Assembly: GCA_945871085.1 (NCBI GenBank)
Contig: CAMBVX010000012.1
Span: 1 to 41,952, forward strand
Source: Opitutus sp. GAS368
GTDB taxonomy: Bacteria > Verrucomicrobiota > Verrucomicrobiia > Opitutales > Opitutaceae
Reading direction: 5' to 3'
Length of the DNA: 41,952 bases
Shown: in pieces, positions 4,794 through 26,736 of the stretch
How positions within the stretch are numbered: the stretch's first letter is position 1
How the letters are laid out: each line of letters begins with the position of its first letter
The notes under the pieces: generated by a model
Seen by the model: only the letters and a program-made list of their open reading frames with translations
Told to the model about the DNA's origin: nothing
The model's database searches: none
Translations under genes and position numbers: made by a program

Positions 4794-6059
4794 CCCCGTG
4801 GCCTAACAAATCCAGCCAGCCACGACAACCCTCTGCCACGGCGCGACTCGATCCTCACGCTCTTCCCGGAATCCTGACCACGCTCCGCCCGGCCCAACCA
4901 AGTTCACCTCCGACTTGTCCCTGGAAAAACTCGTATCCGTTTTCTGATTTCAGCGTGAGACACCACAGGAATAGTTGCGCAAGTAACAGAGAAGGGCGGC
5001 GTGCTCATTTCGATAACGATGGGAGATTGTTGGTCGGAAACTCGAAATTCAGGAGGATCGGATCCGTGAGGGGCTCAAGGGGACGGTGACCGGTGGAAAC
5101 GGAATCGGACCCCTGTTGTCCCGGCAACACGTAAGCCGGCAAACCTAGGTTGCGCCATCGCGGCACGTTCCGAAACCCACGCGTTCGGAAATATTGGGAC
5201 AAACCCTATGTCGATCCAGCGCTGATACGGAATCGCGAGGTCGGCATGGAAAAGGTCGTGATTCGCGCCAGATTGGCGCGATTTTGCTGTTTCAATACCA
5301 ACCTTAATATAGACAGGGTAGTTCCGATCACTCCTCCGAGACGGAATCTTCCCCGCTTGAGGGGGCCTTTTGGGAACAGTGAATTCCTGTCCCCGTAGAG
5401 GCCCGTGGAGGCTGCCAATGCCACCCGGTCGGTAGCTGAGCGAACTCGACCACAGCCGAATCATGACCGACTTGAGTCTGGGCAGTCCTGCGCCAGTGAC
5501 CGGCGGGAGGGGCAGAGGTGATAGTAGGCGAGGTATTCTTCGCGCGCGCGGTAGAGATGCCGTTCGCCGAGGATGCCGGAGCCACGTTCGTAGTGCGGCG
5601 ACCGCGGAACTCTCAGTGGGTAGACGCCGTGCATGATGGAGAAGCCGGCGGTTTGATCGGCGCTTGCCCACCGCGAAGAGGGAAAACTGCAGCACTGTTA
5701 GGCCAATCGGCTCCGGGTCGCGAGGTCCCGTTGCCGATGCTCCTCATCGCATAGGAATGGTTCAGGGAAGGCTGGCGCCGTCACAGCTCCCTGTGCGACC
5801 GGCAAACGGACTGCTGGATTCGTCGGTCGCTAGGGCGTCTGGCGCGGTGGATGACGTGCGTGACGGGCGAAACCCATGGCAATGAAACGCACCGTTCTGG
5901 ATACCCACCTCTGGATACCCACCTACTGAACTATCAGGCTTGATCGATGACCGCTCAAGACTGCTTGAAAATGGGGTTTCACTCGTGTGACATCTCCTGA
6001 ATCATGGAAAGAAGACTCCTGAAATCTGCGCAGTTGAAGACGTTCACGTTTTACTACCA
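4794..6059. other. Gene-poor, degenerate stretch
   Basis: No ORF here has a recognisable domain, a plausible start and consistent coding character. One minus-strand frame at about 5470-5660 contains protein-like text (ERHLYRAREEYLAYYHLCPS) that could be the remnant of a decayed gene, but it has no matching start and ends at a stop near 5460. The stretch lies beside the transposition module and is likely a graveyard of insertions. An imperfect GGGAACAG/CTGTCCCC inverted repeat sits at 5372-5394. Confidence 0.5.
5372..5394. repeat. Imperfect inverted repeat GGGAACAG...CTGTCCCC
   Basis: GGGAACAG is followed after seven bases by CTGTCCCC, a near-palindrome centred on an EcoRI-like GAATTC. Similar GGGGACAG-type palindromes are known as REP sequences mobilised by IS200-like (RAYT) transposases in many bacteria. 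A single copy is visible here and there is no RAYT gene in the window, so the assignment is tentative. Confidence 0.3.
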
Positions 6060-6821
6060 ATGAGCGGACCTTCGGAAAAATTTTGGGCGAATCTGCCGCT
6101 GGGGCGCGAGGTGACGCTGCTCACGCATGATGCGAACGGGGTCGCGGCGCTGGCGAAACCCGCCGGCGTGCTGTCGCATCCGAATGAACCCGGCGAAGAG
6201 CCGCGATCACTGTTGACGGTGCCCTATACGCTCGGCGACGAAGCGTTCGCATGGACCGATGTGGACGGAGCGAAGCGCCAGTTGTGGCTGCTGAACCGGT
6301 TGGATTCGGCGACCTCGGGCGTGATCCTCGCGGCGGCGAACGGTGAGCTGGCGGCCGAGATCCGGGCGCAGTTTCGGAAGAAACAGGTGAGGAAAATTTA
6401 CTGCGCGCTGGTGTTTGGTGGTCCCCGCGAGGCGCTGGAAATCTGGCGTGACCTACTCGTGGTCGACAAACGCGGCGGGAAAATACGGGCGGTGGCCAAT
6501 GCCGGCAACGTTCCCTCCGAGAGCCGGATGAGTGTGGTCCGCATCGGGCAGAAGGAGCCACGCGTTTCTTTGTTGAAGTTGGAGCCGCGGACGGGCCGCA
6601 GCCACCAGTTGCGGGTCCAGGCGGCGAAACGGCATCTGCCGATCATTGGCGATCAGACGTATGGAGATTTTGGACGCAACCGGACCTTCGCCAAATTGGC
6701 GGGGACGAAGCGGATGTTTTTGCATTCGCTGGAAACGAATTTTGACTACGAGTGGAAGGAGCGGACGTGGAAATTTGCGGCGCGGGCACCGATCCCACGC
6801 GAGTTCGAGAAGTTCCTTTGA
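6060..6821 (+). CDS. RluA-family RNA pseudouridine synthase
   Basis: A 253-residue enzyme expected to isomerise a uridine in rRNA or tRNA. The catalytic motif is LNRLDSATSG with Asp82, the position of the invariant Asp of the HRLDxxTSG signature; Asn replaces the usual His. The second family motif, GRSHQLRVQAAKRHLPIIGDQTYGD, is at about residues 178-202. There is no S4 RNA-binding domain before the core, so it resembles the short RluA/TruC-like members. The target base cannot be told from sequence. The ATG at 6060 has no visible ribosome-binding site, as is common here. DAHP synthase follows 43 bases downstream on the same strand. Confidence 0.85.
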   Translation: MSGPSEKFWANLPLGREVTLLTHDANGVAALAKPAGVLSHPNEPGEEPRSLLTVPYTLGDEAFAWTDVDGAKRQLWLLNRLDSATSGVILAAANGELAAEIRAQFRKKQVRKIYCALVFGGPREALEIWRDLLVVDKRGGKIRAVANAGNVPSESRMSVVRIGQKEPRVSLLKLEPRTGRSHQLRVQAAKRHLPIIGDQTYGDFGRNRTFAKLAGTKRMFLHSLETNFDYEWKERTWKFAARAPIPREFEKFL

Positions 6822-6864
6822 CAGAGGGCGGAGAATGCGCGGAATTGCGCGCTCCACGCCCGCC

Positions 6865-7917
6865 ATGATCCTGCCCAAAGCCAACCGCCTCACTCCTGAA
6901 CAGCTCGCCGAAGTCACCGGAATCGTGACGGAGTTTGGCTGCAAGATTCAGCCGATTGTCGGGGCGGTGCGGACGATCTACGCGATCGTCGGGGACGAGC
7001 GCGACGAGCTGATGATCAACCGGCTGGAAGGTCTGAACTACGTCGACCGCATCGACCGCATCCAATCGCCGTTCAAGCTCATGGACAAGCGCTCGGATCT
7101 GGCGAGCCACCGCATCACGATCGGCGGAGTGACGTTGGGCGAGGAGCTGTTTGTGATTGCCGGGGCGTGCACGATCGATCCGAAGAATCCGAATTATTTT
7201 TACGAGACGGCGGCCGCGGTGAAAGAAGCGGGCGCGAACGCACTGCGCGGTGGCGTGTGGAAGCCGCGGACGAATCCGTATTCGTTTCAAGGCGACGTGA
7301 AGTCGCTGGATATCCTCATGGAGGCTTCGCGCCGCACGGGGCTGGCGGTGGACACCGAAGTGATGGAGGAGGCCCACATCACACTCGCCCTCGATGCGGG
7401 CGTGCACACGTTGCAAGTCGGTGCGCGCAACGCGCTGAACTACTCGTTGCTACGGGCGATCGGGAAAGCGATCGCCGAGCGGGAGAACGTCGTGCTCCTC
7501 AAGCGCAGTATCCACATGGGGCCGTTGAGCGAATTTATTTCGGCGGCGGAATACATCGCGGCATTTGGTAATCCGAATGTGATTCTCTGCCCGCGGGGCA
7601 CGACGCCAACGCTCGACGGGTATCGGAACCACCCGGACGAGAGCATCACGCCACTCCTGAAGGAAAAAACGTGGGCCCCGGTGGTGGTCGACCCCTCGCA
7701 CTCCGTGGGCAAAGCGACCTACGTGCCAGCGGCCGCACTGGCGGCGGTGGCATATGGTGCGGATGGACTTTGCATCGAGGCACACGTCGAACCGACGAAA
7801 GGGATTGGCGATGATCCGAAACAAGCGCTGACGCCGGAAGTGCTGCGCACGACGATCGCGCAGGCAAGGCAACTGTGGGCGATTCGCCGGGGGCGAACGA
7901 CACTGCCCGTGTGGTAA
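6865..7917 (+). CDS. aroF: 3-deoxy-7-phosphoheptulonate (DAHP) synthase, AroF/AroA-beta type
   Basis: This enzyme condenses phosphoenolpyruvate with erythrose 4-phosphate, the first step of the shikimate pathway to aromatic amino acids. About 350 residues. The N-terminal 75 or so form the ferredoxin-like regulatory domain found in the class I-beta enzymes, followed by the TIM barrel with GACTIDPKNP, LRGGVWKPRTNPYSFQG, KRSIHMG, CPRGTTPT and DPSHSVGKATY, the metal and phosphate-binding loops. The start at 6865 matches the usual domain start; an in-frame ATG at 6835 is preceded by a purine-rich GGCGGAGA and would add ten residues. The type with this N-terminal domain is usually feedback-regulated, but the effector is not visible. 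Confidence 0.93.
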   Translation: MILPKANRLTPEQLAEVTGIVTEFGCKIQPIVGAVRTIYAIVGDERDELMINRLEGLNYVDRIDRIQSPFKLMDKRSDLASHRITIGGVTLGEELFVIAGACTIDPKNPNYFYETAAAVKEAGANALRGGVWKPRTNPYSFQGDVKSLDILMEASRRTGLAVDTEVMEEAHITLALDAGVHTLQVGARNALNYSLLRAIGKAIAERENVVLLKRSIHMGPLSEFISAAEYIAAFGNPNVILCPRGTTPTLDGYRNHPDESITPLLKEKTWAPVVVDPSHSVGKATYVPAAALAAVAYGADGLCIEAHVEPTKGIGDDPKQALTPEVLRTTIAQARQLWAIRRGRTTLPVW

Positions 7918-7938
7918 TACTTGACGGAAAGACACCGT

Positions 7939-7956
7939 GTGGCCACCTGTGGCCAC
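7939..7956 (+). promoter_or_regulatory. Tandem GTGGCCAC palindromes, candidate antitoxin operator
   Basis: The palindrome GTGGCCAC occurs at 7939-7946 and again at 7949-7956, a 10-bp spacing that puts both on one face of the helix. The second copy abuts the antitoxin ATG at 7957. Toxin-antitoxin operons are usually repressed by the antitoxin at short palindromes near the start, so this is a good operator candidate. Binding is inferred. Confidence 0.45.
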
Positions 7957-8280
7957 ATGAAAAAATCGAAACGAGTTTTGGGAATCCGGGGCCTGCTGCC
8001 TCCCGGAGAGATGCGAGAGCAGGCACCGTCTTTGATGAGGCGGCGAACCGAGGTCTCGGTGCGCGAAGCGAAGGATCAGTTGTCATCGCTTTTGCAACGG
8101 GCCGAGGCTGGTGAGGAAATCGTGATCACCTCGGATGGAGAACCGAAAGCGATGCTCGTGCGGCACCGGCCCATGGTGGGAGGGAAACCATGGCAATCCC
8201 TGGCGGACTTCCGGGCGACACTCCCGATGACACCCGACTCGACGCCGATGATTCGTGAAATGAGAGACAGCGGATACTGA
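7957..8280 (+). CDS. Phd/YefM-family antitoxin
   Basis: The C-terminal 80 residues are a Phd/YefM DNA-binding antitoxin domain: EVSVREAKDQLSSLLQRAEA then GEEIVITSDGEPKAMLV. This fold dimerises on operator DNA and its flexible tail (here ending MIREMRDSGY) blocks the toxin. Translation from 7957 gives 107 residues with an odd 26-residue basic N-terminal extension; the ATG at 8035 would give the usual 81 residues. The operator candidate lies just before 7957. The gene starts 39 bases after the DAHP synthase stop and one base before the VapC start codon, so antitoxin and toxin are co-transcribed. Confidence 0.82.
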   Translation: MKKSKRVLGIRGLLPPGEMREQAPSLMRRRTEVSVREAKDQLSSLLQRAEAGEEIVITSDGEPKAMLVRHRPMVGGKPWQSLADFRATLPMTPDSTPMIREMRDSGY

Positions 8281-8281
8281 A

Positions 8282-8701
8282 ATGTATTTAGATACATCAG
8301 TATTCGTTAAACTTTACACGCGTGAGCCGGATTCGGCGGAATGCGAGCGGATCGTGGCCGGCCACAAGATTGTTTCCTCGGAATTGCTCTACACCGAGCT
8401 GTGGTCGGCCTTACTCGCCAAGGAGCGGGCGGGCACGCTTCTGCCTGAGGCCCGGCAACGGGTGTGGCGGATTTTCGAGTCGCACCTGCTCGACGATGTG
8501 GTGGAGCTGATCGAACTCAACGGGCATGTCTTGCGCGAAGCGGCGGAAATGATTGCTCGGGTGCATCCGCAGGTGCCCTTACGAACGCTCGATGCGATTC
8601 ATCTCGCGACCTTTGCCGGCTTGGACAGCGGACCGCTTTTTACGGGTGACCGCCGGATGATTGATGCGGCGCGATTGCTCTCGTTTCCGCTGGCGCGGTG
8701 A
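8282..8701 (+). CDS. vapC: VapC-type PIN-domain ribonuclease toxin
   Basis: A 139-residue PIN-domain protein. The acidic quartet that binds Mg2+ is present: Asp4 (YLDTS), Glu39 (LYTEL), Asp104 (LDAIHLA) and Asp123 (TGDRRM). Members cut tRNA or rRNA when freed from the antitoxin. It follows the Phd-type antitoxin with a single base between stop and start, which is a common toxin-antitoxin layout. PIN toxins with Phd rather than VapB partners are known. All catalytic residues are intact, so it is predicted active. The gene ends 22 bases before the convergent mutS stop codon. Confidence 0.9.
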   Translation: MYLDTSVFVKLYTREPDSAECERIVAGHKIVSSELLYTELWSALLAKERAGTLLPEARQRVWRIFESHLLDDVVELIELNGHVLREAAEMIARVHPQVPLRTLDAIHLATFAGLDSGPLFTGDRRMIDAARLLSFPLAR

Positions 8702-8723
8702 GGCGGCAGGCGGAACGACGCAG

Positions 8724-11294
8724 TCACAATAAGCTCAGCTGGGGGTCGTCGGCGGGGGCGACGCTAATTTTTTTCTTTGGTCTGGCCTGAGGGGCGGCAG
8801 CGGTCGGGAGGGTCACGTCGGTGTCGTCGCGTTCGAGTTTGGCGAGGATGGTTTTCGCGCGGTCGATAACACTCAGCGGGAGGCCGGCGAGACGCGCGAC
8901 CTGGATGCCGTAGCTGCGGTCGGCGGCACCCGGGACGACGCGGCGGACGAAGACGATATCGTCGTTCCACTCTTTCACAGCGACGGAGAAATTGCGCAGG
9001 CGCGGGAGATGTTTCGCGAGTTGGGTGAGTTCTTGATAGTGCGTCGCGAAGAGCGTGCGGGCCCCGCGCGAATCGGCGTGGTGAAGGTGCTCGACGACGG
9101 CCCAGGCGATCGAGAGGCCGTCGTAGGTCGAGGTGCCGCGGCCGATTTCGTCGAGTATGATGAGGGAGCGGTCGGTCGCGTTGTTGAGGATGTTGGCGGT
9201 CTCGGTCATCTCGACCATGAAGGTCGAGTTGCCGCGTGCGAGATCGTCGCTGGCGCCGACGCGGGAGAAAATGCGGTCAACGAGACCGACGCGGCAGGAT
9301 TTCGCGGGGACCCAGCAGCCCACTTGCGCGAGCAGGGTAATGAGCGCGATCTGGCGGATGTAGGTGGATTTGCCGGCCATGTTGGGACCGGTGAGGAGGA
9401 CAATTTGGGCGTCGTCGCAGGCGAGCAGGGTATCGTTGGGGACGAAGCTGGCGCTCGTGCCACGGGCGACGGTCGTGGCGGGGGAACGGAGCATCTGCTC
9501 CACGACGGGGTGGCGGCCCTCGGTGATTTCGAGAACGTCGCCCTCGTCGATGGTTGGGCGGCAGTAGTTCCATTCGCGGGCGAGCAGCGCCCAGCCGGCG
9601 AGCACGTCGAGTTCAGCGAGAGCATCAGCGTTGTGCGCGAGCGCGAGGGAATCGTCGAGGACGGTGGCGACGAGTTGATTGAAGAGTTCGAGTTCACGCG
9701 CGGCGGCGTTTTCTTCGGCGTGAAAAATTTCCTTTTCCTTGTGCTTGAGGGACTCGGTCACGTAACGCTCGCCACCGACGGTCGTCTGGCGCCGGATGTA
9801 GTCGGTGGGGACGAGGTGGAGGTTGGCTTTGGTGACCTCGATGTAGTAGCCAAAATTATTCGTGAATCGAACCTTCAGGCTGCGGATACCGGTGCGCTCC
9901 TGCTCGGCGCGTTCGAGGTCCGAAAGCCAAGTCTTGTTGTTCGTCGTGAGAGAACGGAGACGGTCGAGTTCGGCGTCGTAGCCGGTGCGCAGATAGTTGC
10001 CGTCGGCAAGATCGTTGGGGAGTTCGTCCGAGAGGGAGGCAGCGAGGAGTTGGCGGAGGGTCGGCAGCTCCTGAAGTTGAGAGCTGAGAGTGGCGAGTTG
10101 AGCGTCCGACCCGAAAGCGAAGAGCTCGGCGCGCAGGATGGGGATTTGCGTCAAGGTATCGCGGATGCCGCCGAGTTCGCGCGGGTTGCGGAGACGATTT
10201 TGGAGACGACCGAGGATGCGCGGAAGATCGCGGACGCTGGGCAGCAATTCGCGGAGCGAGGCGAGACGTGACGGCCGGGCGAGGAGCTCGCCCACGAGAG
10301 ATTGCCGGCGATTGATCTCAGCGAGGTCGAGGGTGGGGGAGGCGAGCCAGCGTTCGAGGAGGCGAGCGCCAGCGGCCGTGCCGGTGCGATTGATGGCGGT
10401 GAGCAATGAGCCGTCGCGCACGCCACGGCTGGAGGAAAATATCTCCAGATTGCGCAGCGTGGCGGGATCGAGGAGGAGGGTGCGGGCGCTGCGATACTCC
10501 TGTAGACCTCGGAGATTTTCCGGTTTCGCGCAGAGATTTTCCGTCGCGTAGAAAACGAGCGCGCCGGCCGGGCCCAGGGCAGGGTGGGTGTGCGCGAGGC
10601 CGAAGCCCTGCAGGTTTAGGACGCCCAGAGTGTCCATCACGGTTTTGGCGCCGGAGGCGGAGTCAAAGTGGTAGCCGGGAAGCTCGGTCACGAGGCGAGT
10701 GGCGGCAAAAGCGTGGAGCGCGTGGATCTCGGTCTGATCGTGCGGGGCGGCCAGCCAGCGCTCGCGTTCGTTTTCGATCACGAGCAGTTCGGCGGGATCA
10801 AGCGCCGTGAGAACCGGGAGGAGATTCGCAATGTGGGTATCGGTTGCGACGCGGAATTCTCCGGTGGAGAGATCGAGCCACGCGGAGTGGAGGCCGTGCT
10901 TATCGAGAGCGAGAGCGCAGAGGTAGTGGTTGCGCGCGGCGTCGAGTTGATTGGCGGCGAGGGTGGTGCCGGGCGAAAGGATGCGCGTGAGCTGGCGGCG
11001 GACGAGCTTGCCGGCCTTGGCGGGTTCGGCCTGGTCGCAGATAGCGACCTTTTTGCCCGCGGCGAGCAGCTTGGTGACGTAGTTGTCGAGGGACTGGGAC
11101 GGAAGGCCGGCCATGGGGTAATCCTGGCGCTTGGTGAGCGTGAGGCCGAGCAGGCGGGAGGCGACGACGGCGTCGTCGAAAAACATTTCGAAGAAATCGC
11201 CGAGACGGAAAAGCAGGAGGGTGTCCTGCGGGAGCCCGCGCTTCACCTCGAAATACTGCTGCATCATCGGGGTGAGTTTGACGGGGTCGGACAT
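8724..11294 (-). CDS. mutS: DNA mismatch repair protein MutS
   Basis: MutS recognises mismatched or looped bases and starts repair. The protein is 856 residues, close to the usual length. The N-terminal mismatch-binding domain carries LGDFFEMFF, the Phe-x-Glu reader of the mismatch. The ATPase has Walker A GPNMAGKST near residue 635, followed by STFMVEMTE and the Walker B segment LIILDEIGRGTSTYDG. The C-terminus ends PQLSLL, a clamp-binding motif like that of E. coli MutS. The start at 11294 (MSDPVKLTPMMQQYFEVK) fits the family; a longer start at 11336 would add 14 unlikely residues. No MutL gene is in the window. An antisense reading frame of 420 codons across it is a shadow. Confidence 0.96.
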   Translation of the reverse strand: MSDPVKLTPMMQQYFEVKRGLPQDTLLLFRLGDFFEMFFDDAVVASRLLGLTLTKRQDYPMAGLPSQSLDNYVTKLLAAGKKVAICDQAEPAKAGKLVRRQLTRILSPGTTLAANQLDAARNHYLCALALDKHGLHSAWLDLSTGEFRVATDTHIANLLPVLTALDPAELLVIENERERWLAAPHDQTEIHALHAFAATRLVTELPGYHFDSASGAKTVMDTLGVLNLQGFGLAHTHPALGPAGALVFYATENLCAKPENLRGLQEYRSARTLLLDPATLRNLEIFSSSRGVRDGSLLTAINRTGTAAGARLLERWLASPTLDLAEINRRQSLVGELLARPSRLASLRELLPSVRDLPRILGRLQNRLRNPRELGGIRDTLTQIPILRAELFAFGSDAQLATLSSQLQELPTLRQLLAASLSDELPNDLADGNYLRTGYDAELDRLRSLTTNNKTWLSDLERAEQERTGIRSLKVRFTNNFGYYIEVTKANLHLVPTDYIRRQTTVGGERYVTESLKHKEKEIFHAEENAAARELELFNQLVATVLDDSLALAHNADALAELDVLAGWALLAREWNYCRPTIDEGDVLEITEGRHPVVEQMLRSPATTVARGTSASFVPNDTLLACDDAQIVLLTGPNMAGKSTYIRQIALITLLAQVGCWVPAKSCRVGLVDRIFSRVGASDDLARGNSTFMVEMTETANILNNATDRSLIILDEIGRGTSTYDGLSIAWAVVEHLHHADSRGARTLFATHYQELTQLAKHLPRLRNFSVAVKEWNDDIVFVRRVVPGAADRSYGIQVARLAGLPLSVIDRAKTILAKLERDDTDVTLPTAAAPQARPKKKISVAPADDPQLSLL

Positions 11295-11391
11295 GGAAGG
11301 GACCGGGAGTGGAACCACGAAACCTGAGGAATACACGAAAATATTTTCGGCGGGCTTGCTCCGGCGGACCGCGTCGTTCGTGTATTTCGCC

Positions 11392-12168
11392 GTGAAGCTT
11401 TTTCATCGAGATTTTGGGGGAGCAGGGCGGCCGCCTTTGGTGGTGCTGCACGGCATGCTGGGTTCGTCGCGCAACTGGCAGTCAGCGGGGCGTGATCTCG
11501 CGGACACGTTTCACGTGCGCGCACCGGACCTGCGGAACCACGGCGCTTCACTGCACGCGGAGACCATGACCTATGCGGAGATGATGGCAGATGTGGTGGC
11601 CTGGATGGACGCGCAGGGAATCGCGAAGGCGGCGTTGCTCGGGCATAGCATGGGCGGGAAAATCGCGATGCGGCTCGCGTGTCGGCACCCCGAGCGGGTG
11701 GAGCGACTGATCGTCGCGGACATCGCGCCAAAGGATTATTTCTGGGTCGCGCATCGGGTGAATTTTGCGGCGATGAACGAACTGGATCTGGCCAGTGTGC
11801 ACTCGCGGGCCGAGGCGGAGCTGAGGCTGGAGGCCCGTGTGACGAGTTGGGCGATGCGGAAATTTATTGTGACTAATCTGGAGCAAGGCGAAGACGGGCG
11901 GTGGCGCTGGACGATCAACTTGCCGGTGATCACGGCGGCACTGAGCGCGTTGGAGAAAAACTCGCTGACGGTTGGCGAATCGGGCGACCGCTTCGAGGGG
12001 CCGGCGCTGTTTATCGCGGGCGGAAAGTCGGACTACGTCGGGCCAGCGGACGACGCGCTGATGCGGCGGCATTTTCCGGCGCTGCGGGTCGAGACCATTG
12101 CCGAGAGCGGCCACAATCCGCACATGGAGACGAGGGAGAAATTGGTGGCGCTGGTGCGCCGCGCATGA
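11392..12168 (+). CDS. Alpha/beta-hydrolase, YbfF/ABHD11-like esterase
   Basis: A 258-residue hydrolase. The oxyanion segment LHGMLGSSRNW and the sequence APDLRNHG are typical of the YbfF/ABHD11 branch. The nucleophile is Ser86 in GHSMGG and the catalytic His is near residue 241 in ESGHNPH; the acid is probably in the KSDYVGPAD region. Substrates are likely small acyl esters or thioesters. The GTG at 11392 gives the normal length; an ATG at 11293 would start inside mutS and add a low-quality tail. The gene is divergent from mutS, about 97 bases away. Function beyond the family is unknown. Confidence 0.82.
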   Translation: MKLFHRDFGGAGRPPLVVLHGMLGSSRNWQSAGRDLADTFHVRAPDLRNHGASLHAETMTYAEMMADVVAWMDAQGIAKAALLGHSMGGKIAMRLACRHPERVERLIVADIAPKDYFWVAHRVNFAAMNELDLASVHSRAEAELRLEARVTSWAMRKFIVTNLEQGEDGRWRWTINLPVITAALSALEKNSLTVGESGDRFEGPALFIAGGKSDYVGPADDALMRRHFPALRVETIAESGHNPHMETREKLVALVRRA

Positions 12169-19872: not shown

Positions 19873-19948
19873 GGGCTCTTAGCTCAGTTGGTAGAGCGCC
19901 TCAATGGCATTGAGGAGGTCAACGGTTCGATCCCGTTAGGGTCCACCA
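19873..19948 (+). tRNA. tRNA-Ala (GGC anticodon)
   Basis: A full cloverleaf fits 76 bases. The acceptor stem pairs GGGCTCT with AGGGTCC and includes the G3-U70 wobble that identifies alanine tRNAs. The anticodon stem CCTCA/TGAGG encloses ATGGCAT, giving anticodon GGC. The T-arm GGTTCGATCC is normal and CCA is encoded. The last 17 bases double as an attachment site: the element inserted here restored the tRNA 3' end. Confidence 0.95.
19932..19948. repeat. attL, 17-bp copy of tRNA-Ala 3' end
   Basis: CCCGTTAGGGTCCACCA occurs here and at 26720-26736. It covers the T-arm and acceptor end of the tRNA gene, the typical crossover region of tyrosine integrases. The integrase gene starts 124 bases downstream. 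Confidence 0.9.
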
Positions 19949-19951
19949 CTT

Positions 19952-19977
19952 AACCCCGTCGCAAGACGGGGTTTCTT
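19952..19977 (+). terminator. tRNA terminator brought in by the element
   Basis: AACCCCGTC (19952-19960) and GACGGGGTT (19965-19973) form a nine-pair stem closed by a GCAA tetraloop and followed by a T-rich tract. It lies inside the element three bases after the att site. It replaces the original terminator now displaced beyond attR. Confidence 0.75.
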
Positions 19978-20027
19978 GTTTTCATAGGTAAAACTGGGTT
20001 TCGGATGTTAGTGAACGTGCAGTCAAT

Positions 20028-20067
20028 GTTTGTTGTTTTGACATTGAAACGCCAAACAACAACAAAC
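20028..20067 (+). promoter_or_regulatory. 10-bp inverted repeat before integrase gene
   Basis: GTTTGTTGTT (20028-20037) and AACAACAAAC (20058-20067) are perfect inverted repeats separated by 20 bases, ending four bases before the integrase ATG. TTGACA lies between them. The arrangement fits an integrase autoregulation or arm-binding site; the role is inferred. Confidence 0.4.
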
Positions 20068-20071
20068 GGGA

Positions 20072-21217
20072 ATGAACAAACCTCGGCAAACGGAATGGGA
20101 TCCACCCCGCGGCATCACCTTCGTTCCTTTTCTCAAAAGGCCAGACCGGCCGCACGGCGTGCAGTGGCGCGTCGACGGCAAACGGAAGACCAAAACGTTC
20201 GCCACCAAGGAGGCCCAGATCAATTTTGCCAAGTCGCTGGCGGGTGACGCCAAGCGCGACGGGCTCGCCGCACTCCGGCTCGACCCTTCCGAGGCGAGGG
20301 AGTGGCGCCACTTCCGTTCCGAGATCGGCGAGGCCAATCTCGAAGACGTTCTTCGGATCTGGCGGAAATACGGGAGCGTGACGAGCCGGGTGACGCTAGC
20401 GGACGCCGTCGCCGCCTTCCTGAAGGCCAAAGCCGGCGAGGGTGTGGCAAAGGCCACCATCGGGCACCTAAAGCCGGTGCTTGAGTGTTTCCGCGATGCC
20501 CTGGGCGCGATGCCCGCGGCGTCCGTCGCGCGCGAACAGCTCGAAACGTATCTGGGTGAGCTCGACACGGAATCGGCGGAGACGCGGCGGTCACACTACA
20601 AGCGCGTGCGAACGCTGTTCAATTGGTTGAAGGCCACCCGACAAATCGTCGACAACCCTTGCGATGGCTGGAAGTCACCGCGCGCCCCGCTCGCGACGGT
20701 CTCCGTGATGTCTGTGGCTGACGGTGTGAAGCTGTTCGCCGACAACGCGAAGGCGCCGAGTGCGCGCGAGTTGCTCGGACGTCTCGCGCTCGAAGCTTTC
20801 TGCGGGATGCGGCACGAGACGGCGGCACGCTTGCCGGGAAGTGCGATCAACTTCAAGGACCGCCTCATCACGATACCGGCGAGCATCGATAAAAACAGGA
20901 AGGATCAATTCATCGAGCACGCTCCGGACAATTTGTGGGCGTGGCTCGCGTGGTCGCAGCCGGACAAATGGAGCTTGGCGCCGGTGCCCTACCGCAACGC
21001 GAAGTCTGCCGCGTTCGTGCGCGCCAACGTCGAACACCCGCACAACGTCCTGCGCCACTCGGCCGCCAGTTACCACATCGCCATGAACGGCGACGCGGGC
21101 AAGACGGCCGCGATGCTCACGCACGCAAATCTCCGGATGCTCTGGTCGAACTATCGAGGGAAGGGCGGCGGAAAGACTAACGGGGAGGCTTGGTTTTCAA
21201 TCCTGCCCCCCGTTTGA
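20072..21217 (+). CDS. int: Tyrosine site-specific integrase
   Basis: A 381-residue tyrosine recombinase. The N-terminal part has a SAM-like domain (about residues 100-190, core-binding) and the C-terminal part the catalytic domain. Catalytic residues are visible: Arg in CGMRHETAARL, His-x-x-Arg in HNVLRHSAASY, His in LTHANLRML and Tyr in NYRGKGG. Integrases of this type cut and rejoin DNA at a tRNA att site, here the tRNA-Ala 3' end beside it. No frameshift is seen. The 3' end overlaps the convergent helix-turn-helix gene by 21 bases. Confidence 0.9.
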   Translation: MNKPRQTEWDPPRGITFVPFLKRPDRPHGVQWRVDGKRKTKTFATKEAQINFAKSLAGDAKRDGLAALRLDPSEAREWRHFRSEIGEANLEDVLRIWRKYGSVTSRVTLADAVAAFLKAKAGEGVAKATIGHLKPVLECFRDALGAMPAASVAREQLETYLGELDTESAETRRSHYKRVRTLFNWLKATRQIVDNPCDGWKSPRAPLATVSVMSVADGVKLFADNAKAPSARELLGRLALEAFCGMRHETAARLPGSAINFKDRLITIPASIDKNRKDQFIEHAPDNLWAWLAWSQPDKWSLAPVPYRNAKSAAFVRANVEHPHNVLRHSAASYHIAMNGDAGKTAAMLTHANLRMLWSNYRGKGGGKTNGEAWFSILPPV

Positions 21218-21796
21218 CTGCGCTAGTTTTCGGGAAATTTTTTCGAGGAAATCTTGGATCGGCTTCGAGTCTCTGAGGATCATCTTGAGTTCACGCTCCT
21301 CCATCTGATCGATGCGGCGGAGCGCTGTGCAGGCCCACTTCGCGCAGGGGTGGAGCAGTGGCCAAATATCCCTCTTTACGACGATCAGTTGCTGGGGGGT
21401 AAAGCCGATTTTATCCAAGTAGCGGTATTCTATCTCCTTTCTGGGATTACGCTGATCCCGAATTACATCCTTAACCTCCCGGCGCTCGGCACGATTCATT
21501 TCTCTGAACGCACGTCGATAAGCGATGCGTTTGGCGGTTATTTCAGCGGTCAACGTTGAAAGCAAACGTCTGTTCTGCGTTCGCTCGGTGCTCGCCGCCT
21601 TCGCGGCGGAAAGGCGTTTGAGTTCACGGTGCAGGGCAGGGCAATCGATAAAACGGAGCTGCCCCCCCTTGGTCTTGCGTTGCCCAGGAAGACGCTGCGC
21701 ATCTGCGAGGCGGTGCACGTGGCGGGGCGTTACCCTGAGTAATTTCGCGATATCGCTGGGCCGAAGCAGAGGCATCAACGAGTGAAAACAGGACAT
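21197..21796 (-). CDS. Helix-turn-helix protein, divergent regulator candidate
   Basis: A 199-residue protein. The N-terminus has a helix-turn-helix of the excisionase/MerR-like type (LLRPSDIAKLLRVTPRHVHRLADAQRLPG followed by a wing KGGQLRF). The rest is charged, helical and not recognised, with a C-terminal region (about residues 130-190) rich in Lys/Arg/Glu. It is transcribed away from the excisionase-like operon with a palindrome between them, a layout typical of a repressor that controls a satellite's lytic genes. It might instead help recombination direction. An internal ATG at 21775 is possible. Confidence 0.6.
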   Translation of the reverse strand: MSCFHSLMPLLRPSDIAKLLRVTPRHVHRLADAQRLPGQRKTKGGQLRFIDCPALHRELKRLSAAKAASTERTQNRRLLSTLTAEITAKRIAYRRAFREMNRAERREVKDVIRDQRNPRKEIEYRYLDKIGFTPQQLIVVKRDIWPLLHPCAKWACTALRRIDQMEERELKMILRDSKPIQDFLEKISRKLAQSNGGQD

Positions 21797-21822
21797 TTTG
21801 GCTAAGTCAAGTTGTCAGCCGC

Positions 21823-21838
21823 TGCTTACTTGTAAGCA
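21823..21838. promoter_or_regulatory. 16-bp palindrome between divergent genes, candidate operator
   Basis: TGCTTACTTGTAAGCA consists of TGCTTAC and GTAAGCA separated by TT. It lies 27 bases from the minus-strand start (21796) and 29 bases before the plus-strand start (21867), and would control both. The regulator that binds is unknown; the divergent gene is the natural candidate. Confidence 0.55.
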
Positions 21839-21866
21839 CGCGATAACCGCGGGCTTCGTAAAATCA

Positions 21867-22079
21867 ATGCACGCCACCCTAACAAACACGCAATCAGCGG
21901 ACAGTGCCGCGTCCGGCAAGAGACAGATTTTGCCTGATGCTGTTTACACGACCGACGAGGCAGCCGTCATTTGCTGCGTCATGCCGAGCACAATACGTGC
22001 GGCGGTTCGAACCGGAATCCTCAAGGGCAAGGGCCGACCTTACCGCTTCCGCGGGATCGAGCTCTTCAAAATGCTATGA
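21867..22079 (+). CDS. Excisionase-like helix-turn-helix protein (AlpA/HTH_17 type)
   Basis: A 70-residue protein with the signature VYTTDEAAVICCVMPSTIRA and then a wing with GKGRPYRFRGIEL. This is the HTH_17/excisionase fold seen in AlpA and phage Xis. It begins the coupled operon, and its stop overlaps the next start in ATGA. In satellites an AlpA-like protein triggers excision or replication; that is inferred here. Frame 21798 has a TTG start option but 21867 is the ATG that fits the domain. Confidence 0.65.
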   Translation: MHATLTNTQSADSAASGKRQILPDAVYTTDEAAVICCVMPSTIRAAVRTGILKGKGRPYRFRGIELFKML

Positions 22080-22513
22080 GCACACCCCAGCAAAAAGAAA
22101 GGGTGCCGGCCCACGAGACCGGACACCCCGATGAATCCACCAACACAATAGGCTGCCGCGTCAACCTGGAGCAGGCGGCGCACGACGCGGCGGTCGACGA
22201 AGCACTCGGTTTCTCCGAACCCGGCGAACTCGCGCCCTATTTTTCCACGGCCGACGTGATTTCGTGGCAGGTGAAGCGCGCGGCACTCATGGCGCTCCTG
22301 CACTTGGAGACGCGCTCGTTTCAGGAGGTCGCGAGCAGTCTCGGCGTGACCAAGGCTGCGATCTCGAAGGAATATATCTCGACGGTGAACCGGCTCGGCT
22401 GGGGGTCGTTGTTCCGTAAATTGGAGACACGGAAGCACAACGCGGAAGCGGCGGCTCGTCGCCACGCCAAGCAGGCTGCGGTCGCGCCAATCTCAGCGGG
22501 AGGTTGCCCATGA
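22076..22513 (+). CDS. Small protein with sigma-factor-like helix-turn-helix
   Basis: A 145-residue protein. Its central part (ALLHLETRSFQEVASSLGVTKAAISKEY) is a helix-turn-helix that looks like the region 4 of sigma factors or a phage activator. The N-terminal half is disordered and the C-terminus basic. Both ends overlap neighbours by four bases (ATGA), so it is in the middle of a translationally coupled chain. Role uncertain: transcription control of the element is the natural guess. Confidence 0.5.
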   Translation: MSTPQQKERVPAHETGHPDESTNTIGCRVNLEQAAHDAAVDEALGFSEPGELAPYFSTADVISWQVKRAALMALLHLETRSFQEVASSLGVTKAAISKEYISTVNRLGWGSLFRKLETRKHNAEAAARRHAKQAAVAPISAGGCP

Positions 22514-23127
22514 CCACTATCATCACCTGCCCGTCACACGTCGACGCCGCGCTCGTCCAACTTGCCCGCGCTCAGCGCGCGATTGCCCAATGTAAGACCG
22601 CGATGGAAGCCAAGCAGATTTCCGACATCGCCGAGGCCGCTCGCGTCTACCTTGAGCGCACCAACGCCAGCGACGAGACCGTGAACCGGGCTGCGGAGAT
22701 CCGCACTCTCGCCGAGCGGCAGATGGGGGCCTTCCTGAAACAGGCGCCGAAGGCGGTGGGCGGAAATCCAAACCTAACCGGTCCACGTGATGGACCGGTT
22801 GAGAGGCCTGCCACCCTCTCCGAAATCGGCATCACCAAGAATCAAAGCAGCACCGCGCAGCAGCTCGCCTCGATCCCCGAGCAGGAGTTTCGCGAGCGGC
22901 TCGCCCTCACCAAGGCCAGCGGTGAACGCATCACTGCAAAGAAAATAATCAGAGGAGAATTTTCGCCAGCGGCCATCGCGGCCGGCGAAGAAGCCGAGGC
23001 CGACTCGGAAAATCTATGGATACTTAAGAGCCGCTGGAACAGGACGAGCAAACGCGACCAAGCCGCATTTCTCACTTGGGCACAGACGCGGAGTGTAGCG
23101 ACGGTAACGACGGGAGGCTCTTCATGA
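22510..23127 (+). CDS. Hypothetical phage/mobile-element protein
   Basis: A 205-residue mainly helical protein. The middle carries ISDIAEAARVYLERT and NRAAEIRTLAERQMGAFL, a pattern found in small phage or plasmid proteins often located before replication genes; function is unknown. It overlaps both neighbours by four bases, so it belongs to the helicase operon. No catalytic residues are visible. Confidence 0.5.
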   Translation: MTTIITCPSHVDAALVQLARAQRAIAQCKTAMEAKQISDIAEAARVYLERTNASDETVNRAAEIRTLAERQMGAFLKQAPKAVGGNPNLTGPRDGPVERPATLSEIGITKNQSSTAQQLASIPEQEFRERLALTKASGERITAKKIIRGEFSPAAIAAGEEAEADSENLWILKSRWNRTSKRDQAAFLTWAQTRSVATVTTGGSS

Positions 23128-24668
23128 CCCCGTCACCTCGTCATCTTCCCCACAGCCTCGAAGCCGAGGTGCAACTGCTCGCGTGCGTGTTCGTCGATAG
23201 TCGGGTGGTGCTCGCTCAGTGTATCGCTGCCGGCATCACGCCGGCGTCCTTCTATGATTCGAAACACGGCAGTGTGTTCGCACTCATGCTCGATCTTCAC
23301 CGCCGAGATAAGCCCGTTGAGGTTTTCACCATCGCCGAGGAATTGAAATCAACCCAGCAGCTCGACTCAATCGGTGGATACCCGTTCGTCCTCCAAATCA
23401 GCGGGAAATCCGCGACGACGGCGCAGGTCGCCTACTGCATCGAGACGGTGCGAGCCTTGCACTTGCGCCGCGGGCTGATCCGAGCGGCGAGCGAAACGAT
23501 CGAGCGCGTCACTGCGCATACGGGCAGTGCTGACGAACTTCTCGGCGAGCAGCGCGCGAGGCATGAGGCGTTTATCGCGAACTACGCCCGCCACGCGCGG
23601 AAGCCAGTAGGCTTCACCGTGTGGGGTGTCGCCGATTTTGAAAAGCACTTGCCCGCACTCGATAACGTGATCCTGGGCGAGGCCAACGGATCGAGGTATT
23701 GGCACGACAAGCAGGTGGCCTTGCTGCTGGGGCCGGGTGGTGTCGGCAAATCACGGTTGAACCTTCAGCTCGCAATCTCCCAGATTTTGGGCTGGGAGTT
23801 TATCGGGTTCCAGACGTTCGGACCGCCCCGCCGTTGGCTCGTCATGGGCAACGAGAACAGCGTCGAGCGGTGCAAGAAGGAGCTGGCCAAAATGCTCTCT
23901 GGAGCGTCAACGGAAGAGAGGGTCCTGGTGGCGGAGAACCTGCACTTGCAGGCGCTGGTCGATGATTCGGCGGACAGTCTCTCACTCGACGATCCGCGAG
24001 CGGTGGCGCTCTGGAAAGAAACCGCGGCAATTCACAAACCCGACATCCTGACGGTTGACCCTTGGGAGGCGGTTATCAGTGGCGGGGATTGCAATGATGC
24101 GGCGGCCACCCGCGAATCGGTGCGGGTGCTTCGGTCCATCTTCTCGCCGCATAGCCAACGGTTTTCCATGATCATCGTCCATCATGCCCGGGAAGGAGCC
24201 GAGGCTGCACGAAAGGCCGAGGGCTTCGACGCTGGCGCATTCGCCAAGGGATCAAAGACCCTGCGGAGTATTGCGCGGTTCGGGATCAATGTGGCACCGG
24301 AGGATCCGGACGACGGGGGTAGGGTGGTGTTGGCGTGCGGGAAGATCAATGACGGCCGGAAGTTTTCGACACGGGGGGCTGTGTTGGACGAGGGGACCTT
24401 CACTTACGCGCTCAACTCGGGCTTCGACGTGGTGGCATGGCGGGCTGACGTTGAGGGTAAGCAGGACGGGAGGTCATGCTGCGTGAGGGATGTAGTCACC
24501 TGCGTCGAGGCGGGCTTGCGCAAGACGGGGGAGATCGTGAACCAAGTGAAGGACGATACTGGAGCCGGCGCGCGAACCGTGAAGAACAGGTTGAAGGAAG
24601 CGCTCGACTTGGGTTATCTCAAACAGGAAACCCATGGAGTTTATTCGCTGGGAAAAAGAGAGTTGTGA
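23124..24668 (+). CDS. Replicative helicase: DnaB-N domain plus RepA-like AAA ATPase
   Basis: A 514-residue protein. Residues about 8-110 match the N-terminal helical domain of DnaB helicases (LPHSLEAEVQLLACVFVDS and GITPASFYD). Residues about 185-430 are a RecA-fold ATPase of the RepA/AAA_25 type with Walker A GPGGVGKS near 203, a Walker B candidate ILTVDPWEAV and the segment IIVHHAREG. The C-terminal 80 residues look like a winged helix (RTVKNRLKEALDLGYLKQETH). Such proteins unwind plasmid, phage or satellite origins. It is the last gene of the coupled operon, and an iteron array follows it. Fused architectures like this are known, but the exact family was not checked. Confidence 0.78.
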   Translation: MTPSPRHLPHSLEAEVQLLACVFVDSRVVLAQCIAAGITPASFYDSKHGSVFALMLDLHRRDKPVEVFTIAEELKSTQQLDSIGGYPFVLQISGKSATTAQVAYCIETVRALHLRRGLIRAASETIERVTAHTGSADELLGEQRARHEAFIANYARHARKPVGFTVWGVADFEKHLPALDNVILGEANGSRYWHDKQVALLLGPGGVGKSRLNLQLAISQILGWEFIGFQTFGPPRRWLVMGNENSVERCKKELAKMLSGASTEERVLVAENLHLQALVDDSADSLSLDDPRAVALWKETAAIHKPDILTVDPWEAVISGGDCNDAAATRESVRVLRSIFSPHSQRFSMIIVHHAREGAEAARKAEGFDAGAFAKGSKTLRSIARFGINVAPEDPDDGGRVVLACGKINDGRKFSTRGAVLDEGTFTYALNSGFDVVAWRADVEGKQDGRSCCVRDVVTCVEAGLRKTGEIVNQVKDDTGAGARTVKNRLKEALDLGYLKQETHGVYSLGKREL

Positions 24669-24671
24669 AAT

Positions 24672-24774
24672 CAAAGTGCAAGATTGTGCAGCTTGCACTT
24701 TGATTTGCACGAACCTGCACTTTGCCCAAAGTGCAAAGTGCAACACCCCTTGTGGGGTTGCACGTTGCACTTTG
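24672..24774. repeat. Iteron-like array of TGCACTTTG, candidate replication origin
   Basis: The nine-base word TGCACTTTG, or its complement CAAAGTGCA, occurs exactly six times: 24672-24680, 24694-24702, 24716-24724, 24727-24735, 24734-24742 and 24766-24774. Partial copies (TGCAC) lie at 24706 and 24759. The array begins four bases after the helicase stop codon. Clustered short repeats beside a replication gene are the typical layout of iteron-controlled origins. Copies are in both orientations. Replication is not shown. Confidence 0.65.
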
Positions 24775-24894
24775 GGTGAGGTTCACCGGATTCACTATCA
24801 CCGAACGACTCGCGACAATTGGGTTCGGCGGAATCTTGGCGTGATCGGCGAGCCAGGCATAAGGAATCTTTTGACGGTTCGTCTCCACAGAGGT

Positions 24895-24914
24895 AACGCG
24901 ACTCGAGTCGCGTT
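24895..24914. repeat. 20-bp perfect palindrome
   Basis: AACGCGACTCGAGTCGCGTT is a perfect palindrome with no spacer. After one T/T mismatch it extends with GAGG/CCTC. It lies in the non-coding region between the iteron array (24672-24774) and the gene at 25010. It could be a protein-binding site or a cruciform in an origin. No second copy is seen in the window. Confidence 0.6.
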
Positions 24915-25009
24915 TCCTCGCGCCGACGAAAAAACTGACGATTCGCATCGTTCGCGGGCGCGGTCTGGGTGCCGTGTTGGGTGCCGAGGTTGACACCCGC
25001 TCCTTTGGT

Positions 25010-25258
25010 ATGCCTCTCCCAAAATCACACGCGCTCGTCCGCACCGACCGAGTTTTCCTGTCTCACCACTCGTTCGCCAAGCTCGTCGGCGCCCACCGGC
25101 ACACGATCTTGCGCGCGATGGCAAAGGGCGAGGTCGAGCCTGCCGGTTGGATCGATAGCAACGGCAACCTCACCCCGATTTGGACCCCTGCGCAGGCCAT
25201 CACTCTCTCTCAGCTCCTCCACCGCACTCCCATCAACGTCCCACCTGCAATCTCATGA
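25010..25258 (+). CDS. Small helix-turn-helix-like protein
   Basis: An 82-residue protein. The segment HHSFAKLVGAHRHTILRAMAKGEVEP reads like a winged or excisionase-type helix-turn-helix. It overlaps the next gene by four bases (ATGA). Function unknown; a transcription or packaging regulator is possible. Confidence 0.5.
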   Translation: MPLPKSHALVRTDRVFLSHHSFAKLVGAHRHTILRAMAKGEVEPAGWIDSNGNLTPIWTPAQAITLSQLLHRTPINVPPAIS

Positions 25259-25527
25259 AATCCCTCAGCTCCATCATTGGTCAGATCGATCTGGCTCCGA
25301 AGACTCTCACCGATGCCCGCCAGCAGCTCCGCGCCATCAAAGAAGCCCTGACCGCCCTCGCCGCGGCCACGCCGTCTGCCCCGCCGACCGCAAGGCCACC
25401 GGCCACGCCAGTCAACGCCCTGACGACCTATCGCGGCCTCGTGGGCCAAGCACGGACGGACTTTTTTCGGGCGAATGAAGATGCTATCTGGGCCCTCTTC
25501 CGCGCCACCGCCAACACCACAAAGTAA
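25255..25527 (+). CDS. Hypothetical small protein
   Basis: A 90-residue protein. Helical N-terminal half, a Pro/Ala/Thr linker (residues about 37-55) and a helical C-terminus. No family recognised. It starts inside the stop codon of the previous gene, so the two are coupled. Confidence 0.5.
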   Translation: MKSLSSIIGQIDLAPKTLTDARQQLRAIKEALTALAAATPSAPPTARPPATPVNALTTYRGLVGQARTDFFRANEDAIWALFRATANTTK

Positions 25528-25542
25528 CCGCACCCACACCAA

Positions 25543-26214
25543 ATGAATCACCACCAAACGGGGTCCAACCCCGCCGACTTCAAACGCTACCTCACCGCGA
25601 ATCGCATCGCGTTCCTACCTGCCGACCTCATCGAGGCGCTCGCCACCGCCCAGGCTTACTGCGACGGTATACACCTCGAAGGAGCGAAGTTCTCGATTGA
25701 CGCCGCCAACAGCGAGCTTGGTCGCATCGCAGCCGAGGCCCGCGCTACGCCCAGCGCGGAAAATCTGCTGAAGCTGAGCGAGACAACGCACGACGCTCTT
25801 CACGCGCGATACGAGGCTGTCCGTATTTTGATCGGTGATACATACGAGGGCTTCAAAATTGAAAAGGTGCGGCCCTTGCTTCGTCAGGTGCACGCGTTGG
25901 CGGCCCCGATCATCGCCGAGCAGATCGAACTCGCGGCCCGCTCCGGTGCCGCTCGCGCCGAGGCATTCGGCGTGCGCTATGACCGCTCGGAAGACACCGT
26001 TGTCGCCGCGCTCCTGGCCTTCCAAACGCGGGCTGGGCAGTATCTCCTTCAGGACGGCCCCCGAGAAAGCGAACCCGGTGCGGTTGGGTACCTGTTTGGC
26101 GACCTGCGTCCGCTGGCCCCTTCCGCCGCCGTGGAGGAGGTGCCCGACGCACCGAAGCCAACGACCGCGCCCGCCCTCAAAACGGCCGTCGAGCTGATCG
26201 CAGCTCGATCCTAG
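25543..26214 (+). CDS. Hypothetical protein of satellite cargo region
   Basis: A 223-residue, mostly helical protein (residues about 40-150 look like a helical bundle), ending in a Pro/Ala-rich tail. No recognised domain, signal peptide or membrane segment. It is last in the plus-strand gene row and is followed within eight bases by a long hairpin terminator. Genes in this position in satellites often carry phage-interference or other cargo functions, but nothing in the sequence shows that here. Confidence 0.55.
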   Translation: MNHHQTGSNPADFKRYLTANRIAFLPADLIEALATAQAYCDGIHLEGAKFSIDAANSELGRIAAEARATPSAENLLKLSETTHDALHARYEAVRILIGDTYEGFKIEKVRPLLRQVHALAAPIIAEQIELAARSGAARAEAFGVRYDRSEDTVVAALLAFQTRAGQYLLQDGPRESEPGAVGYLFGDLRPLAPSAAVEEVPDAPKPTTAPALKTAVELIAARS

Positions 26215-26221
26215 TTCCTTT

Positions 26222-26307
26222 CCCAACCGCAAAGCCGACGTGCTAGACCGCTGGGGGCTCGGAACTAATTTCGCCGAGTCAGCGGTCGCCTGCGGTTGGG
26301 TTTTTTT
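26222..26307 (+). ncRNA. Nested three-stem hairpin with terminator tract
   Basis: Three perfect stems are nested in one 79-base arm: CCCAACCGCA (26222-26231) with TGCGGTTGGG (26291-26300); ACCGCTG (26247-26253) with CAGCGGT (26280-26286); CTCGG (26258-26262) with CCGAG (26274-26278). Seven T's follow the outer stem. It can be read as the terminator of the upstream genes, but the inner loops and the 15-base internal loop are larger than a plain terminator needs, so a structured RNA product is possible. Confidence 0.5.
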
Positions 26308-26327
26308 GGTCAGCGATAACCAAATAA

Positions 26328-26410
26328 CTCACTGTCGATATTCACGTCGGCGAGAGCCATTTTTGCCGACGCTCGAGTGCCGGAGGGCCTCGGGCGACAG
26401 TGAGGCTAAT
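26328..26410 (+). ncRNA. Candidate three-way-junction RNA structure
   Basis: An outer stem of CTCACTGTCG (26328-26337) and CGACAGTGAG (26395-26404) encloses two hairpins: CGTCGGC (26345-26351) with GCCGACG (26365-26371), and CTCGAG (26372-26377) with CTCGGG (26389-26394, one wobble pair). A TTTTT tract follows at 26410. All pairs are visible in the sequence. Transcription is not shown. Confidence 0.4.
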
Positions 26411-26719
26411 TTTTCCAGACACCCAACGCATCAGGAATAGTGCGGTCCGCACCGTGCGTTCGTTGATCGAGGGCTTCCTCGCTCGGTGCCATGTCGGGGC
26501 GTCACCCGGGCGCCATGCCAACGTTGATCACCGTGATCGTGGCGTAGACCGTGAGGTCGCGCACCCGCCGGTGGGCGCGAGTGTGCCGGATGCGCGGGGA
26601 GGAATGAGCCGCCGTCGGCACGATCAAGGTCGACGGTTAGACCTTCGTTGGGTCCACCTCGCGCCTGTAAAATAGACAAACCAAGCGACAAACCGAGTTT
26701 TCACCCAGCAAAAGAAGGC
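26411..26719. other. Non-coding tail of element, hairpin-rich
   Basis: No credible gene. Several further short inverted repeats can be read: AACGCA/TGCGTT around GTGCGGTCCGCAC (26425-26460), CGAGG/CCTCG near 26468, GCGCACCC/GGTGGGCGC near 26565 and AAGGTC/GACCTT near 26626. The word CGTTGGGTCCACC (26646-26658) resembles a degenerate att core. Possibly a structured border, possibly debris. Confidence 0.4.
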
Positions 26720-26736
26720 CCCGTTAGGGTCCACCA
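26720..26736. repeat. attR, 17-bp tRNA-end duplicate
   Basis: CCCGTTAGGGTCCACCA is identical to the last 17 bases of the tRNA-Ala gene at 19932-19948. It marks the right border of the element and is the displaced original tRNA end. Confidence 0.9.

Follow-up and report, generated by a model that had tools for sequence, protein, structure and literature searches.

The window, a stretch of 41,952 nucleotides from Opitutus sp. GAS368 (Opitutaceae, Verrucomicrobiota; contig CAMBVX010000012.1), contains a 6.8-kb unit inserted at a tRNA-Ala gene, which we are inclined to read as a phage-satellite-like integrative island that would work like phage-inducible chromosomal islands (PICIs) and phage-inducible chromosomal minimalist islands (PICMIs). 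It was not filed as a PICI because it differs in size and in terS, the small terminase gene, and because two phage markers have no match in the genome. Related islands with one or a few virion genes each suggest a little-known group of elements that would hitch-hike on viruses.

An intact island at the 3′ end of tRNA-Ala

The unit of 6,788 bp is bounded by exact 17-bp repeats (19932–19948 and 26720–26736), the left of which is the 3′ end of tRNA-Ala(GGC). The 6,788 bp were recognized as an insertion because a genome of the same genus, G188, has the same flanking genes and an uninterrupted tRNA, with a TonB-like gene, tRNA-Ala, an M50 protease gene and an NtrC gene contiguous and without insert. 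The two tRNA-Ala genes are identical at 76 of 76 positions, and from the repeat onwards 50 of 56 nucleotides in G188 equal the right junction of the window, terminator included. The comparison shows that the unit entered tRNA-Ala(GGC) at its 3′ end, that the tRNA stays whole and that the unit brought its own terminator along. The repeat-bounded unit described in the initial annotation was thereby confirmed and its empty site added. The features at the borders are as follows:

19873..19948, plus strand: tRNA-Ala(GGC), the target gene (ARAGORN, Rfam RF00005); its last 17 nt are the attL core
19932..19948, plus strand: attL core, 17 bp, exact (repeat comparison)
19949..19982, plus strand: terminator hairpin carried by the island, behind the tRNA once inserted (sequence; a similar arm with an altered stem at the same tRNA in G571, locus L122)
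26627..26658, plus strand: further tRNA-Ala 3′ end, degraded (24 of 32 nt match; maximum of 500 shuffles, 22)
26720..26736, plus strand: attR core, 17 bp, exact, then the original tRNA terminator (repeat and empty-site comparison)

Two observations at the right border were missed in the initial annotation. The degraded tRNA-Ala copy lies 61 bp ahead of the right repeat and is perhaps the scar of an earlier, other insertion, and about 500 bp ahead of the same repeat hold no convincing gene.

At the M50 protease loci fetched (L118–L126), tRNA-Ala adjoins the gene in four of nine, and none of these four holds a prophage. Two sites are closed (L118 and L124), one contains about 490 bp of other sequence (L119), and one (L122 in G571, 260–1405) holds an integrase remnant, that is, a solo integrase with 33% identity to that of the window, behind the same tRNA-Ala and followed by host genes.

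Gene content and comparison with known satellites

The genes of the island are arranged in the order integrase, minus-strand HTH_17 regulator, Xis-like helix-turn-helix (HTH) protein, orfC, orfD, helicase, iteron array, orfF, orfG and orfH:

20072..21217, plus strand: tyrosine integrase, 381 aa (phrog_1 5e-19; Pfam Phage_integrase 21.6 bits, under the 27.1 cut-off); relatives adjoin tRNA genes
21197..21796, minus strand: HTH regulator, divergent from xis (HTH_17 1.5e-6, 28.8 bits, above cut-off; weak phrog_66 and phrog_57; weak PADLOC mad1 2e-5)
21867..22079, plus strand: Xis-like HTH protein (HTH_17 8.9e-5, 23.1 bits, under the cut-off of 27; phrog_2474 7e-5); open reading frame (ORF) open from TTG at 21798
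22076..22513, plus strand: orfC, possible HTH protein (weak HTH matches); ATGA overlap with xis
22510..23127, plus strand: orfD, with counterparts on the tailed-phage contigs L154 and L155 (62% identity across 141 aa); fragments in other islands
23124..24668, plus strand: helicase with DnaB N-domain, AAA_25 core and predicted C-terminal winged helix, proposed initiator (PF00772 1e-18, PF13481 1.8e-15; model)
24676..24770, no strand: iteron array, proposed origin (nine GTGCA/TGCAC half-sites and a CCCC-TTGT-GGGG hairpin)
24974..25258, plus strand: orfF, small HTH-like protein and first cassette gene (58% identity to L139; same position in L143 and L144)
25255..25527, plus strand: orfG, with a conserved C-terminal motif (alignment)
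25543..26214, plus strand: orfH, all-helical protein (alignment, structure model; no fold match)

The integrase and helicase (rep) genes point the same way. ATGA overlaps chain xis, orfC, orfD and the helicase gene, and orfF overlaps orfG likewise, so that the unit appears compact and without visible decay. Family matches agreed with the integrase, divergent regulator, excisionase-like gene, helicase and cargo of the initial annotation, those of the integrase (Pfam) and Xis falling below cut-off. Its statement that capsid, terminase and transfer genes are missing also held: capsid, large-terminase, relaxase and lysis families gave no match for any of the nine proteins at the thresholds used in Pfam, PHROGs and NCBIfam, the sole virion-type match being a weak one of the regulator's HTH part to the small-terminase family phrog_57 (4e-4, PHROGs).

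The absence of such matches bears on whether the unit is an integrative mobilizable element, which would rely on an origin of transfer (oriT) and on conjugation machinery supplied by some other element. An oriT-only form would be compatible with the sequence, and a tRNA-Ala island in G039 (L109, 6325–11885) with an integrase 28% identical to that of the window carries relaxase-like and VirD4-like genes, read by eye. Unlike such an element, the window island has no protein among its nine that matches a relaxase or coupling family, and L109 shares the integrase only; we regard this explanation as improbable.

In the passages of PMC6092414 that define PICIs, these islands have int, a regulator facing xis, a replication gene, an origin directly 3′ of it, and cargo. 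Two iteron sets flank an AT-rich stretch, structural and lytic genes are absent, the size is typically 12–15 kb, att is never occupied by a prophage, and some PICIs have terS or a capsid morphogenesis gene. Set against these passages, the PICI gene order reported for the unit was found, namely a tyrosine integrase at a tRNA att site, a regulator opposite xis, rep, an origin 3′ of it, cargo, and no recognized structural or lytic gene. The island departs from the same passages in size (6.8 kb versus 12–15 kb), in having no recognized terS or capsid-morphogenesis gene (its relative L144 has a TerS-like gene) and in that the stretch between its two iteron sets is not markedly AT-rich; its helicase is DnaB-N plus AAA_25, not of the Pri-Rep or DUF927 type given there and in part of PMC7581432. 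The host phylum of the island is not named in the PICI passages. PICMIs are described in part of PMC10803314 as small satellites with integration and replication genes only, located beside fis in Vibrionaceae. The window island is likewise small, with integration and replication genes and no recognized packaging gene (orfG and orfH have no assigned function), and differs in being in tRNA-Ala, not beside fis.

A helicase followed by a proposed iteron origin

The array (24676–24770) lies directly 3′ of the helicase stop codon, its nine half-sites forming two sets. The iteron-like array of the initial annotation proved to be beyond chance: dinucleotide shuffles gave a mean of 1.64 half-sites and nine or more in 0 of 2000, and no other 110-bp stretch of the window has more than three. 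An AT-rich melting region was sought and none was found; the stretch between the two sets (24721–24730) is short and not markedly AT-rich, and the GC content of the array is 0.52. The layout is alike in four loci (the window, L143, L035 and L152), always behind the helicase gene; half-sites are 89% identical between the window and each of the other three, and spacers 36–48%. The helicases themselves are 65% (L035), 57% (L152) and 53% (L143) identical to that of the window, and those of L036 and L039 36–37%.

Residues 454–509 of the helicase are predicted to form a winged helix, the structure model giving the order H-H-H-E-E with predicted local distance difference test (pLDDT) values, taken by tens of residues, mostly of 79–91. 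This model was built from three sequences, and only its ends were used, the core being poor (mean pLDDT 55.9). According to part of PMC7581432, Rep helicases of Staphylococcus aureus pathogenicity islands recognize iterons directly 3′ of their gene via the C-terminal domain, and by analogy the window helicase would use a similar scheme with a different helicase type.

Other helicase lineages are followed by other words, GCGACA in L036 and L038, GTCATA/ATGACA in L039 and CGTGTC in L139; downstream repeats are absent behind the L044 helicase and the plain DnaB of L144. A second set comprised 12 of the 14 helicase places found at E 1e-50 or better outside the earlier set (G592 and G718 were left out as partial). 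In eight of these 12, a downstream 6-mer was repeated to a level that no more than 1 of 500 shuffles matched; upstream stretches reached a maximum of 2–5 copies. Six different words occur among the eight loci, seven of which differ from the window in their word; they are not eight independent cases, since L195 and L200 come from one genome and L197 and L198 have a common word and integrase. Repeats of other words directly 3′ were noted for the AAA_25 helicases of L036, L038, L039, L139, L189 and L195–L200, and the iteron word may follow the C-terminal domain of the helicase. L189 is a 7.3-kb tRNA-Asn island with this helicase type and 50-bp repeats.

One of the loci with the window's array, L035 (G000:C539, 1–3897), belongs to the same assembly and holds a primase-like gene, the helicase gene, the array and an ERCC4-like nuclease gene. 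This replicon may be foreign to the organism of the window, assembly contamination being 4.26%.

Descent of the helicase from plasmids or phages was considered and set aside: 129 phage and 568 plasmid matches were obtained, none covering more than 80% of the query and all below 60% identity, and among the matches listed most run via the DnaB N-domain. Order-wide matches (192 of 223 genomes) were not used, as by matched range they fall mostly on the DnaB N-domain of the host helicase. In the genome-contig search, the window helicase alone gave 0 loci and the helicase alignment three.

A cassette common to other small islands

The order HTH–orfG–orfH is kept in L143 and L144, both in G652, and the order orfG–orfH in L147. 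At L143, tRNA-Gly is accompanied by integrase, Xis-like, helicase, array, ERCC4 nuclease, HTH, orfG and orfH, after which the contig ends. L144 consists of integrase, regulator, Xis-like, RepO-like, DnaB, HTH, orfG, orfH and TerS-like (phrog_57 1.7e-5) genes, and its borders are 14-bp repeats, the shortest of the set, one of them in tRNA-Glu. When L143 and L144 are compared, HTH, orfG, orfH and the next ORF are 75–87% identical and the integrases and helicases hardly related. The proposal of a new group in the initial annotation is supported to the extent that a group of elements exists: besides the window, two genomes of the family hold the cassette, in three elements altogether.

The model of orfH has one long helix and a mean pLDDT of 62.6. 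Neither the integrase nor orfH had a match in phage records, and orfH and orfD had none in the eight further genomes of the genus searched. Both orfG and orfH are small and precede the TerS-like gene in L144; our guess is that they act on head assembly or packaging.

Islands with single virion genes

The link of orfD to L154 and L155, two IMG/VR contigs, came from an alignment search, the single protein having given none. L154 has an Sf6-type TerS (2.7e-18) and L155 a sub-threshold large-terminase match (0.0044); among phage records, orfD matched two Synechococcus phages at 35%. An orfD-based search led to further tRNA islands, L139, L140, L141, L148 and L149, in which orfD is mostly a fragment. 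A conserved orfD core was observed in the tRNA islands L139, L140, L141, L142, L145 and L146, several of the copies being broken fragments near an end.

Both repeats are kept in eight of the 11 islands compared (E0–E10, 6.8–16.2 kb), L142, L143 and L147 being cut by contig ends. Genes were called by ORF length and third-position GC. Isolated virion genes occur on the more loosely linked tRNA islands, which measure 7.5–16 kb. Tape measure proteins were found in L141 (1e-18), L148 (1e-18) and L149 (7e-11). L148, a 13.5-kb tRNA-Arg island, holds a lone HK97 capsid gene (8111–9190; PF05065 1.7e-33) and the tape measure gene (6021–7670). L149, a 16.2-kb tRNA-Asn island, holds genes for TerS (11101–11430; Terminase_4 25.2 bits, barely above the 24.7 cut-off), prohead protease (8599–9387; 6.7e-37) and tape measure (6424–7989). 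Large terminase and portal were not among the 25 commonest of the 56 and of the 55 PHROG families shown for the 119 distinct proteins of E0–E10. Two candidates read by eye were discarded: L044 7879–8622 as TerS, for which Pfam gave nothing, and L140 7526–8824 as tape measure, which had no PHROG or strong Pfam match.

In having one or a few virion genes on a tRNA-type island, L148 and L149 resemble capsid-forming PICIs (cfPICIs), virion-encapsidated integrative mobile elements (VEIMEs) and tycheposons; VEIMEs and tycheposons are covered, with the known satellite families and soil satellites, in part of PMC11389934. According to part of PMC10690885, the capsid and packaging genes of cfPICIs form a full set, of which L148 and L149 show only some. 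The structural genes of L148 and L149 also set these two islands apart from the PICI definition in the passages of PMC6092414.

Virion genes on tRNA islands would also fit a tailed prophage that has lost its structural half, a history that we consider improbable for the window unit. L036 and L039, in which terminase and portal genes were read by eye and which were taken for tailed prophages, have the same helicase family and downstream repeats of other words, orfD is common to tailed-phage contigs, one tRNA island has a capsid gene, and G571 holds a solo-integrase remnant at the same tRNA. Unlike L036 and L039, to whose helicases its own is 36–37% identical, the window unit has no terminase, portal, capsid or tail gene among its nine proteins. 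Its repeats are exact and its genes intact and ATGA-coupled, and its orfF–orfG–orfH cassette is common to other small islands, orfH being without match in phage records. Simple decay is partly argued against by two-repeat islands of 6.8–16 kb at different tRNA genes, whose small sets of virion genes differ. The initial annotation held that homologues with capsid or conjugation genes would point to a decayed phage or an integrative and conjugative element; such genes were found in part, in the loosely linked L148 (capsid and tape measure) and, by eye, in L109, and the differing virion subsets speak against simple decay.

Evidence for and against a satellite

A number of results weigh against a phage satellite. 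In the genome of the window, a draft of 630 contigs, there was no match to PF05065 (controls, 4 of 14) or to phrog_2, which we take to be the large terminase family (controls, 11 of 14); the check for co-resident phages proposed in the initial annotation gave nothing with these two markers. Its satellite claim stands in so far as the unit is separate, intact and inserted at a specific site and has a replicon, and not as regards the phage-satellite nature. No terS, capsid-redirecting or interference gene was recognized in the element with Pfam, PHROGs and NCBIfam, and the helicase, integrase and orfH had no relative in the viral contigs searched. Of the family, 250 genomes were searched, and the cassette with orfH was found in only three: that of the window, G767 and, in two places, G652; the fold search with orfH gave a best E of 1.3, that is, no match, and PDB sequence searches with orfG and orfH nothing credible. 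L141, L148 and L149 are tied to the window only by orfD fragments and integrase identities of 26% (L141) and 21% (L148), the links of L148 and L149 being measured on the shorter fetches L146 and L145. As to the iterons, only six of the first 10 helicase loci exceeded all 300 shuffles by 6-mer count, and four of the 12 in the second set were weak (L192 and L194 borderline, with 16 and 11 of 500 shuffles; L191 and L193 failing).

The last such result is L152 (G775:C21:44420–82784), where the same helicase type and array belong to a 38.3-kb island bounded by exact tRNA-Asn repeats of 46 bp, so that the replicon is not confined to small islands. Its proteins, in the subset of genes scanned, include JetC/JetD-like (Wadjet-like), Z1, methylase, UvrD and McrBC. 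This island, together with the missing helper-phage markers, would suit an integrative replicating island without a dedicated helper, carrying defence genes or other cargo, which excises, copies itself and moves rarely via chance transduction or uptake. We consider this unlikely for the window unit, since PADLOC recognized no defence gene among the four window proteins scanned, giving only a weak HTH match, and relatives of its cassette accompany a TerS-like gene in L144.

Proposed mechanism and significance

As a phage satellite, the island could work as follows. Going by the protein families, a signal would flip the divergent regulator/xis pair, and the integrase and Xis-like protein would excise a circle. 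The winged helix of the helicase would bind the GTGCA iterons 3′ of its gene and open the origin, as families and anatomy suggest, and host or helper enzymes would copy the circle. The HTH–orfG–orfH cassette would target the helper, most likely at assembly or packaging. A tailed helper phage would then package the copies, using its terminase as happens with PICMIs or aided by the cassette, a step proposed because of the cassette's neighbours (the TerS-like gene in L144).

More tentatively, Opitutaceae might possess their own satellite family with swappable integration and replication modules. In this proposal, a self-loading DnaB-N/AAA_25 initiator would have private iterons directly 3′, the word changing by helicase lineage, and each member would steal a different small virion part of the helper (TerS, prohead protease, major capsid or tape measure), some acting on head packaging and others on the tail. 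No description of tape-measure piracy by satellites was found in the literature searched, in which several papers pair the two terms. Nothing on point was found for satellites in Verrucomicrobia, Verrucomicrobiota or Opitut- in that literature, which is mostly open-access, the main survey lying outside it.

Phage satellites are known from few phyla. Should the islands described here be satellites, Verrucomicrobiota, which are abundant in soil and water, would possess a set of their own, and a capsid or tape measure gene standing alone on an island would represent a new point of takeover on the helper. The rule of a helicase with private iterons would provide a sequence marker for such islands and would separate replicating from passive ones.

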